Source: Microbispora amethystogenes
GTDB lineage: Bacteria > Actinomycetota > Actinomycetes > Streptosporangiales > Streptosporangiaceae
DNA: 64,000 nucleotides
Direction: 5' to 3'
NCBI RefSeq assembly: GCF_016863015.1
Contig: NZ_BOOB01000041.1
Coordinates: forward strand, 1 to 64,000
The notes under the pieces were generated by a model, which ran no database searches, was not told where the DNA came from, and saw only the letters and a list, made by a program, of their open reading frames with translations. A program made the translations under genes and the position numbers. The first letter of the stretch is position 1, and every line of letters begins with the position of its first letter. Below, piece after piece: positions 40,703 to 44,929 of the stretch.

Positions 40703-42355
<1,653 letters not shown>

Positions 42356-42432
42356 TCAACGGACCGAGCCGACGCCCGCGACGGCGTGGACCCGCTATCC
42401 CTGCGCGAGCCCCATCGCCCCGATCCCGGTTG

Positions 42433-42459
42433 TTGTCACTCTCGACCTCAGAGTGCCAA
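42433..42459. promoter_or_regulatory. CIRCE element 2 (HrcA operator), promoter-proximal to groEL
   Basis: TTGTCACTC-N9-GAGTGCCAA, the CIRCE inverted repeat with two departures from the consensus TTAGCACTC-N9-GAGTGCTAA. It lies downstream of the -10 in the leader. Confidence 0.85.
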
Positions 42460-42467
42460 ACAAGTAT

Positions 42468-42494
42468 TTAGCACTCTACCCCCGAGAGTGCAAG
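42468..42494. promoter_or_regulatory. CIRCE element 1 overlapping the groEL promoter
   Basis: TTAGCACTC-N9-GAGTGCAAG is a close CIRCE match. On the minus strand the -35 TTGCAC (plus 42488-42493) and -10 TAAATA (plus 42465-42470), spaced 17 bp, overlap it, so HrcA binding would occlude the promoter. The leader from here to the groEL start is about 130 nt. Confidence 0.88.
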
Positions 42495-42579
42495 CGGAAG
42501 CCACTCTGACCAGCTTGGACGAGGTTCCCGAACACCCTTACGAGGACAAACGAGGACCGACGGGCACGGACGAGCCGAA

Positions 42580-42608
42580 GGCCCGGTCCGCGGATCGCGG
42601 ACCGGGCC
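42580..42608 (-). terminator. Terminator after the cold-shock gene
   Basis: GGCCCGGTCCGCG (42580-42592) and CGCGGACCGGGCC (42596-42608) form a perfect 13-bp stem with a three-base loop, 21 bases past the csp stop. Confidence 0.85.
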
Positions 42609-42629
42609 TCCAATGGTCGCTTGACGGGA

Positions 42630-42833
42630 TCAGGCGACGGCCCGTACGGCCTCCGCCTGCGGGCCCTTCTGCCCCTGCGTGATGTCGAACTCAACCCGCT
42701 GACCCTGCTCGAGGGCCTTGTAGCCGTCCATCATGATTGCCGAGTAATGGACGAACACATCCTTCCCACCGTCTACCGCGATGAAGCCGTAGCCCTTGTC
42801 CGCGTTAAACCATTTGACGGTGCCCTGCGCCAC
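42630..42833 (-). CDS. CspA-type cold shock protein
   Basis: The GTG at 42833 follows AGGAG and gives a 67-aa single cold-shock domain: [20 protein letters not shown] (RNP1) and DVFVHYSAI (RNP2). It acts as an RNA chaperone. The leader includes a likely promoter (TTGTTC, 16 bp, TATGGT near 42900-42930) and is about 65 nt or more. An upstream in-frame ATG at 42866 gives a non-conserved extension. Confidence 0.93.
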
Positions 42834-43089
42834 TTCCGACTCCTCTTGCTGGGCTGGGGACCACACCCAAGAAGCCCCCGGTTTCGTCGATCGTCTTCGA
42901 CCATACCCGTGTCAAGGCGTAGAACAACAGAGTCAATCCGCAAACTACTACGTCGCGTTCGCTCAAAGCGGTACAGACGATTATTCACTTTTCTACCGAA
43001 AGGTTGAGCGCTTCACCTTTCGCCGCCGTGACGCCCCACTTCCCCGGTGAAAGAAGCGCATGTCAGGTGCACGGCGGCGGTGCCGCGGC

Positions 43090-43365
43090 TCAGCCCCCGG
43101 CGACGGCGGGGATGACCGAAATCTGTACCCCGTCCGGCGTGGCGGTGTCCAGCCCATCGGCGAAACGGACGTCCTCTTCTCCGACATAGACGTTGACAAA
43201 ACGCCGAATCTTGCCCGTCTCATCCAGGATTCGACCTCCGATGCCCGGATAGTCCGCATCCAGCTTCTGCAGGACCTCGCGGAGCGTTCCCCCCTCCCCG
43301 CTCACCTCCGCGACGCCGTTGGTGTACGTCCGCAGAATCGTCGGAATCCGCACGGAAACGCTCAT
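43090..43365 (-). CDS. CysO/MoaD/ThiS-like sulfur carrier protein
   Basis: The 91-aa ubiquitin-fold protein (VRIPTILRTYTNG, RFVNVYVGEEDVRF, ISVIPAVAGG) ends in the diglycine needed for C-terminal thiocarboxylation. It closely resembles mycobacterial CysO, the sulfur donor for cysteine synthase CysM. It begins 45 bases after the stop of the threonine-synthase-like gene on the same strand, downstream of a SAM riboswitch. This points to delivery of sulfur to that enzyme for homocysteine rather than cysteine. No JAMM protease or adenylating enzyme is adjacent; these must be encoded elsewhere. Confidence 0.9.
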   Translation of the reverse strand: MSVSVRIPTILRTYTNGVAEVSGEGGTLREVLQKLDADYPGIGGRILDETGKIRRFVNVYVGEEDVRFADGLDTATPDGVQISVIPAVAGG

Positions 43366-43410
43366 TGCTCACTCGCTTTCGTTGCTGCCGATGGGCCTGT
43401 GATAACGCTT

Positions 43411-44679
43411 TCAGTTGGCGAATGCCGCACGGAAGGCGTCGAGGGAGGGACGGATGACCGCGGACGGGCGGGCCTGCGCGGCCACCGCGTCAAGTGTCTT
43501 GAGACCGTCGCCGGTGTTCAGCACGACGGTTTCGGCCTCGGGGTCGAGGCGCCCCTCGCGCACGAGCTTGCGCAGCACGCCGACCGTGACGCCGCCCGCG
43601 GTCTCGGCGAAGATTCCCTCGGTCCTGGCCAGCAGGCGGATCGCCTCGACCACCTCGCCGTCGTTCACGTCCTCCACCGCACCGCCCGTGCGCCGGGCGA
43701 TGTCGAGCACGTACGGGCCGTCCGCCGGGTTGCCGATGGCCAGCGACTTGGCGATGGTGTCGGGCTTGACCGGCTGCACCACGTCCTGCCCGGCCTTGAA
43801 GGCGCGGGAGACCGGCGAGCAGCCCTCGGCCTGCGCGCCGAAGATCCGGTACGGCCGCTCCTCGACCAGGCCGAGCTTGATCAGCTCGCGGAAGCCCTTG
43901 TCGATCTTCGTGAGCTGCGAGCCGGAGGCCACCGGGACGACGATCTGCTCGGGCAGCCGCCAGCCGAGCTGTTCGGCGATCTCGTACGCCAGCGTCTTGG
44001 AACCCTCGGCGTAGTAGGGCCGGAGGTTGACGTTGACGAATCCCCACTTCTCGCCCAGCTCGTCGCCGATGAGCTCGGAGCAGAAGCGGTTCACCTCGTC
44101 GTAGGTGCCGTCGATGCCGACCAGCCGGCCGCCGTACACCGCGGCCATGGTGACCTTGGCCGCCTCCAGGTCGGCGGGGATGAACACGCAGGAGTCCAGC
44201 CCGGCCCTGGCCGCCGCGGCGCCCACCGCGCCGGCGAGGTTGCCGGTGGACGAGCACGACAGGGTGTGGAAGCCGAAGGCGCGCGCGGCCTCGACCGCGA
44301 TCGCGACGACCCGGTCCTTGAAGGAGTGGGTCGGGTTGCCGGAGTCGTCCTTGACGTGCAGCGACCGCAGCCCGAGCTCGGCCGCCAGCCGGTCGGCCCG
44401 CACGAGCTTGGTCCAGCCGGGCTGCAGGTTGGGCTTGTCCGCCACCCCGGCGGGGACGGGAAGCAGGGAGCGGTACCGCCAGATGTTCGTCGGGCCCGCC
44501 GCGATGTCCTCCCGGCGGACCTCTCCGAAGTCGTACGCCACCTCAAGGGGGCCGAAACACTCCGTACAGGCGAAGACCGGGCCGAGCTCGTAGTGAGCGC
44601 CGCACTCCCGGCAGGACAGACCGGTGGCGGGGCCGAAGTCGGTGGTGGTGGTGGGGGCCGCAGTGCTGCTGTGCGCCAT
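43411..44679 (-). CDS. thrC: Threonine synthase-family PLP enzyme, probably a MetM-like homocysteine synthase
   Basis: The 422-aa protein has an N-terminal four-Cys zinc-ribbon-like segment (Cys23, 26, 38, 41), the PLP lysine Lys121 in PTHSFKDR, and SCSSTGNLAGAVGA phosphate-binding residues. By family it is threonine synthase acting on O-phosphohomoserine. A SAM riboswitch lies in its leader and a CysO-like carrier gene follows, which instead suggests use of a thiocarboxylate to make homocysteine from O-phosphohomoserine. I recall a Streptomyces MetM/MetO route of this kind, from memory. Threonine synthase activity is the alternative. Start ATG 44679 follows GGGAAAGG. Confidence 0.85.
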   Translation of the reverse strand: MAHSSTAAPTTTTDFGPATGLSCRECGAHYELGPVFACTECFGPLEVAYDFGEVRREDIAAGPTNIWRYRSLLPVPAGVADKPNLQPGWTKLVRADRLAAELGLRSLHVKDDSGNPTHSFKDRVVAIAVEAARAFGFHTLSCSSTGNLAGAVGAAAARAGLDSCVFIPADLEAAKVTMAAVYGGRLVGIDGTYDEVNRFCSELIGDELGEKWGFVNVNLRPYYAEGSKTLAYEIAEQLGWRLPEQIVVPVASGSQLTKIDKGFRELIKLGLVEERPYRIFGAQAEGCSPVSRAFKAGQDVVQPVKPDTIAKSLAIGNPADGPYVLDIARRTGGAVEDVNDGEVVEAIRLLARTEGIFAETAGGVTVGVLRKLVREGRLDPEAETVVLNTGDGLKTLDAVAAQARPSAVIRPSLDAFRAAFAN

Positions 44680-44695
44680 GAAGCGAGGCCTTTCC

Positions 44696-44831
44696 CTCAT
44701 CTTCGCTCGCGACCACCCTGGCCGCGAGCCGGAATTGGCACCTGTCCCGGCCGGGCCTCGTGGGCACGAGTTCGACACCGGGGAGGTTGCCGGGGCTTCG
44801 CAGGGCCGGTCCCTCCACCCCTCTGGATGAG
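44696..44831 (-). promoter_or_regulatory. SAM riboswitch (S-box, SAM-I type)
   Basis: On the minus strand the leader has P1 strands CTCATC and GATGAG (plus 44826-44831 and 44696-44701), then AGAGGGGTGGAGGGACCGGC, GAAGCCCCGGCAACC and GGTGCCAATTCCGGC in the conserved S-box order. The ribosome-binding site GGGAAAGG directly follows P1 and overlaps its end, so SAM binding probably blocks translation rather than terminating transcription. It precedes the threonine-synthase-like gene by 16 bases. Confidence 0.92.
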
Positions 44832-44845
44832 CATCTTCAGTTGTG

Positions 44846-44864: not shown

Positions 44865-44929
44865 TCCAGCACTGTACCCCGGCGTCCCCTGTGTCCGTTC
44901 CGTTGTCTCAGATGGTGAGAAGGTTTGTA

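Follow-up and report, generated by a model that had tools for sequence, protein, structure and literature searches.

A SAM-I riboswitch upstream of a threonine-synthase-like gene and a sulfur carrier gene in Microbispora: a probable homocysteine synthase operon

Why would a gene that a standard family model calls a threonine synthase lie behind a riboswitch for S-adenosylmethionine (SAM)? The question is raised by a minus-strand locus in a 64,000-nucleotide stretch of DNA (the window) from the soil actinobacterium Microbispora amethystogenes, where an S-box leader, a thrC-like gene and a gene for a small sulfur carrier follow one another. Our answer, to which we assign a probability of about 0.9 on the strength of sequence comparisons, is that the locus is a SAM-repressed metM-metO operon, encoding a PLP enzyme and a thiocarboxylated carrier that together would convert O-phosphohomoserine to homocysteine. 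The features on which the argument draws are listed here in the direction of transcription.

44871..44876, minus strand: possible -10 hexamer TACAGT of a metM promoter, a weak assignment from resemblance to relatives
44694..44833, minus strand: SAM-I (S-box) riboswitch aptamer, from cmscan with RF00162
44685..44701, minus strand: putative expression platform, from a pattern in 81/81 leaders and ViennaRNA folding
43411..44679, minus strand: metM, threonine-synthase-like PLP enzyme of 422 aa, predicted O-phosphohomoserine-dependent homocysteine synthase (TIGR00260, PF00291)
43090..43365, minus strand: metO, ubiquitin-like sulfur carrier protein of 91 aa with C-terminal ...IPAVAGG (PF02597)

The earlier note on this DNA had placed an S-box in the leader of the thrC-like gene, with a P1 stem formed by CTCATC and GATGAG, and had suggested a search with the SAM-I model. 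Such a search, run with cmscan over the whole window, returned a strong minus-strand match to RF00162 (SAM-I, S-box) at 44833-44694 (72.9 bits, E 3.8e-15; gathering score 44.4 bits), the sole Rfam match above the gathering score in the window. The match is full length (model positions 1-108), and the P1 strands, CUCAUC at 44831-44826 and GAUGAG at 44701-44696, agree with the note in sequence and coordinates. The metM ATG at 44679 begins 14 bases past the 3´ end of the S-box. Both by its score and by its place in the leader of a methionine, SAM or sulfur gene, the element is a member of the S-box class, for which SAM binding is predicted. The search of the host genome (8.13 Mb in 167 contigs; nearest named relatives by MetM are Microbispora) gave no further RF00162 match.

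The metM reading frame (stop at 43411) encodes a protein with a Pfam PALP domain (PF00291) and a TIGR00260 score of 281.1 bits, above the cut-off of 167.1 bits. The score makes threonine synthase activity compatible with the sequence, and the nearest solved structures of the protein are threonine synthases, so that metM could be read as a second ordinary threonine synthase gene whose neighbouring carrier serves some other pathway. However, TIGR00260 does not separate MetM from ThrC, and the genome holds a second, better-scoring canonical ThrC (C27:91047-92000, about 306-307 bits) whose gene adjoins thrB and rho. The expectation of a separate thrC near hom and thrB was thus borne out for thrB; hom was not found beside this thrC in the 15 kb read. 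Against M. tuberculosis ThrC, the canonical host protein scores 490.9 bits and MetM 155.6 bits, and the two host proteins share 33% identity. MetM resembles canonical ThrC in sequence family, in the catalytic lysine motif SFKDR and in substrate class, but differs in several active-site motifs, in an additional N-terminal ribbon of four cysteines and in its linkage to an S-box and MetO.

These differences hold throughout the family. Where the ThrC sequences compared have the active-site motifs NPTGSFKDRGM, STGNTS, NPHR and GNAG (within GNAGN), MetM has NPTHSFKDRVV, STGNLA, RPYY and ASG (within ASGSQ) in their place. The histidine of the first motif is found in 117/119 MetM sequences, the second tyrosine of RPYY is invariant in the 119 orthologues, as is the cysteine ribbon (C-x2-C...C-x2-C), and STGNLA and ASG are invariant or nearly so. 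The protein is thrC-like, distinct from canonical ThrC and followed by metO, as is expected of a MetM orthologue. In addition, SAM repression of threonine synthesis would make little sense, the thrC-like gene is co-inherited with MetO and the S-box, and for the Streptomyces MetM, PMC12172450 relates the finding of Hasebe et al. that it is a homocysteine synthase. We consider a second ordinary threonine synthase very improbable.

The gene that follows metM after a gap of 45 bases had been taken for a CysO-like carrier ending in diglycine, and it has the properties of one. MetO matches Pfam ThiS (PF02597) with 52.6 bits, ends in AVAGG, lies beside metM, and has M. tuberculosis CysO as its closest solved structure (3dwg, E 3.3e-25). 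CysO acts as a thiocarboxylated carrier, and in the CysO-CysM-Mec system of Mycobacterium tuberculosis, as predicted here, a ubiquitin-like protein hands its thiocarboxylate sulfur to a PLP enzyme; there, however, the product is cysteine rather than homocysteine. The window pair is not CysO/CysM, since the Microbispora genome holds its own CysM-CysO-Mec cluster elsewhere, with a CysO that is only 52% identical to MetO. An enzyme that activates such carriers and transfers sulfur to them is also encoded: MoeZ, at C30 (NF005902, 727.5 bits; cut-off 647), is a candidate partner for MetO. Many MetO orthologues (L051-L098 and others) end in ...PAVAGGC, or in GGAR or GGQ, and would need C-terminal trimming before thiocarboxylation, which the window MetO, ending in GG, would not.

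Whether the host needs this pair depends on its other means of making homocysteine. The best MetX match in the genome, 24.8 bits, is not credible (the model does find its C. glutamicum control), and MetA gave no match in the genome; no homoserine acyl ester can therefore be predicted. With homoserine acylation apparently missing, MetM/MetO is probably the only de novo route to homocysteine in this host. A strong match to the cystathionine gamma-synthase model PRK07811 (678.7 bits, cut-off 513), from a MetB-like gene at C42, raises the alternative that MetM is real but secondary, with the C42 enzyme making most of the homocysteine from O-phosphohomoserine and cysteine in the manner of plant cystathionine gamma-synthase. 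Yet the gene immediately upstream of the C42 gene encodes a cystathionine beta-synthase (TIGR01137, 653.6 bits). This is the usual layout for reverse transsulfuration, and it points to a flow from homocysteine to cysteine. Moreover, the sole SAM-I riboswitch of the genome is not over the C42 gene, and no acyl-homoserine synthase was found in the genome to feed its enzyme. We give a main role for the C42 enzyme very little credence. A second PF01053 protein, at C2, scores below every equivalog cut-off listed. Taken with the S-box, the second thrC and the distinct carrier, the lack of a credible MetX or MetA supports the reading of the locus as a homocysteine synthase operon that the earlier note had put forward.

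In the route that we propose, MetO would be adenylated and thiocarboxylated on its C-terminal glycine, probably by MoeZ. Hasebe et al. are said to have described the thiocarboxylate chemistry of MetO. MetM would take O-phospho-L-homoserine from the threonine pathway and, by orthology with the Streptomyces albulus enzyme, would exchange its phosphate for the sulfur of MetO-COSH, giving homocysteine and, from it, methionine and SAM.

A MetM/MetO route in Streptomyces, which the note had mentioned, does exist in the literature: it is the S. albulus system of Hasebe et al. (2024; AEM 90:e01247-24), as cited in PMC12172450. The riboswitch, in contrast, is not the new detail that the note had thought it might be. 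A SAM riboswitch upstream of S. albulus metM has been reported (PMC12172450, 2025), and an RF00162 S-box has been placed over the two-gene unit SLIV_16930-SLIV_16925 of S. lividans TK24 (PMC8079986, 2021). The metM-metO-S-box system is thus already known, and what is new here is its Microbispora member and the comparative evidence. The S. albulus system shares with our locus a thrC-like gene followed by a carrier gene, an upstream SAM riboswitch and the O-phosphohomoserine route, and differs in that ours belongs to another family, the Streptosporangiaceae. The S. lividans unit likewise has an RF00162 leader over two genes, but comes from another genus and is annotated as threonine biosynthesis. 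The Streptomyces loci in our set have the same layout as the Microbispora locus, although many of their carriers end in GGC whereas the Microbispora carrier has no residue beyond GG. MetM is 77-81% identical to these Streptomyces orthologues and 91-92% identical to those of Microbispora.

The association of the three elements extends well beyond this host. An S-box core lies at the same place, 5´ of metM, in all 80 related loci recovered from named genomes (Microbispora, Streptosporangium, Nonomuraea, Nocardiopsis, Streptomyces, Kitasatospora, Catenulispora and others), and in each of 78 checked cases from other genomes the S-box and the MetM match share a strand, with the S-box 9-101 bases 5´ of the match. 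With 80/80 and 78/78 loci in agreement, the linkage of S-box and metM is not due to chance. The carrier gene adjoins metM in 112/118 loci. Six loci (L126, L129, L132, L138, L141 and L148) have metM with no metO in the downstream stretch, which indicates that the carrier need not be linked to metM; in these, it may be encoded elsewhere, or CysO may take its place.

We also surveyed 297 Actinomycetes genomes, drawn evenly, which share ancestry and are not independent, so that Fisher values computed from them are not true probabilities. MetM was found in 192 of the 297; an S-box was present in 191/192 genomes with MetM compared with 11/105 without it. MetX was absent from 100/192 MetM genomes and from 4/105 of the others; MetM and MetX are partly alternative in the Actinomycetes. 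The 11 genomes that have an S-box and lack MetM are G002, G021, G027, G056, G071, G227, G234, G244, G251, G259 and G275. In about two thirds of the sampled Actinomycetes genomes, a gene called threonine synthase by the standard family model is probably a SAM-controlled methionine gene, a reading that corrects routine annotation and also the metabolic models of antibiotic-producing bacteria, for which SAM supply is important.

How SAM would act on the operon is suggested by an element shared among the leaders. In the window, the 3´ strand of P1 continues as GAUGAGG, followed by a purine loop, GAAAGG, that contains the likely Shine-Dalgarno sequence (44694-44689), and then by CCUC (44688-44685), which is able to pair with GAGG at 44698-44695. 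The pattern GAUGAGG-N5-8-CCUC-N3-7-AUG, with GAUGAGG or a one-base variant accepted, occurs in 81/81 leaders of the close set, with a spacer that is purine-rich and holds the likely Shine-Dalgarno. Coding constraint was considered as a cause of the conserved GAGG...CCTC and rejected, because no fixed reading frame could be kept across a spacer whose length ranges over 5-8 bases. In ViennaRNA partition-function folding, P1 and the GAGG/CCUC hairpin are mutually exclusive. For the free window RNA the hairpin is predicted with probability 0.999 and the spacer is 86% unpaired; with P1 forced, the hairpin is gone and the unpaired fraction of the spacer falls to 45%. The mean over the 81 leaders is weaker than for the window, with the spacer 72% unpaired in the free RNA and 58% with P1. 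In more distant families P1 still adjoins the Shine-Dalgarno, and the CCUC is not always kept.

P1 and a small hairpin enclosing the Shine-Dalgarno are in competition in the 81 leaders, from which we propose translational control. When SAM is plentiful, it would bind the S-box, and the stabilised P1 would take up the GAUGAG beside the Shine-Dalgarno and block the GAGG/CCUC hairpin, so that metM-metO translation falls; when SAM is scarce, sequence and folding suggest that P1 would open and translation go ahead. The shared leader element offers a simple model of how the switch works. Most S-boxes of Bacillota act by transcription termination, and Rho is present in this genome, so the S-box might instead act on transcription, through attenuation or Rho access. 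But the start codon comes just 14 bases after the aptamer, a terminator would not fit between it and P1, the Shine-Dalgarno abuts P1, and P1, Shine-Dalgarno and start codon are equally crowded across the class. Control of transcription is, in our judgement, unlikely, and repression of metM-metO translation through P1 is the model we infer. An ATG within the P1 strand (GATGAG; window 44700-44698) is in frame with metM here and not in the Nonomuraea or Nocardiopsis relatives.

Upstream of the aptamer, a TAnAGT-like hexamer stands 5´ of the S-box in most of the related Streptosporangiaceae leaders shown. The window also has an inverted repeat, GGACCTT-TTTCG-AAGGTCC (44864-44846), 3´ of the putative promoter and 5´ of the S-box. 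Hairpins at this place with stems of at least 6 bp occur in 25% of the 81 leaders compared with 9% of mononucleotide shuffles; as the stem sequence varies among relatives and the excess over shuffled expectation is weak, conservation of an upstream hairpin is suggestive only.

A second riboswitch class may bear on the sulfur supply. In MetX-bearing genomes, SAM-IV was found before metX or metY-metX in 47/47 checked pairs, at 79-269 or about 1,450-1,670 bases upstream (metY-metX being judged by distance and downstream frames); the pairs were chosen for both matches on the same contig and strand, and so show that the arrangement exists rather than its frequency. In several MetM genomes, SAM-IV precedes a class V aminotransferase gene that is cysteine-desulfurase-like by eye. 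The host is one of them, its SAM-IV riboswitch lying at G000:C63:48071-48186 (L152). SAM-IV has been reported over a cysteine desulfurase in S. lividans (PMC8079986). Judged by eye, SAM-IV also has a desulfurase-type gene after it in a few genomes that lack MetM, and the co-occurrence with MetM is not exclusive. The idea that SAM-IV itself is specific to MetM genomes was unsupported, since it occurs in 61/100 genomes with MetM only, 58/92 with both and 85/101 with MetX only. A tentative proposal, which we put forward as a possibility rather than an expectation, is that in Actinomycetes SAM-I guards almost exclusively MetM/MetO and SAM-IV guards metY-metX, and that in MetM lineages SAM-IV has control of a class V aminotransferase (cysteine desulfurase), from which the sulfur of MetO may come. 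If this were true, SAM would turn off the two halves of a single sulfur-transfer route.

Downstream of metM-metO, genes for a cold-shock protein and groEL follow on the same strand (window 40703-42866), and in most loci of Streptosporangiaceae and Streptomyces both lie close to metM.
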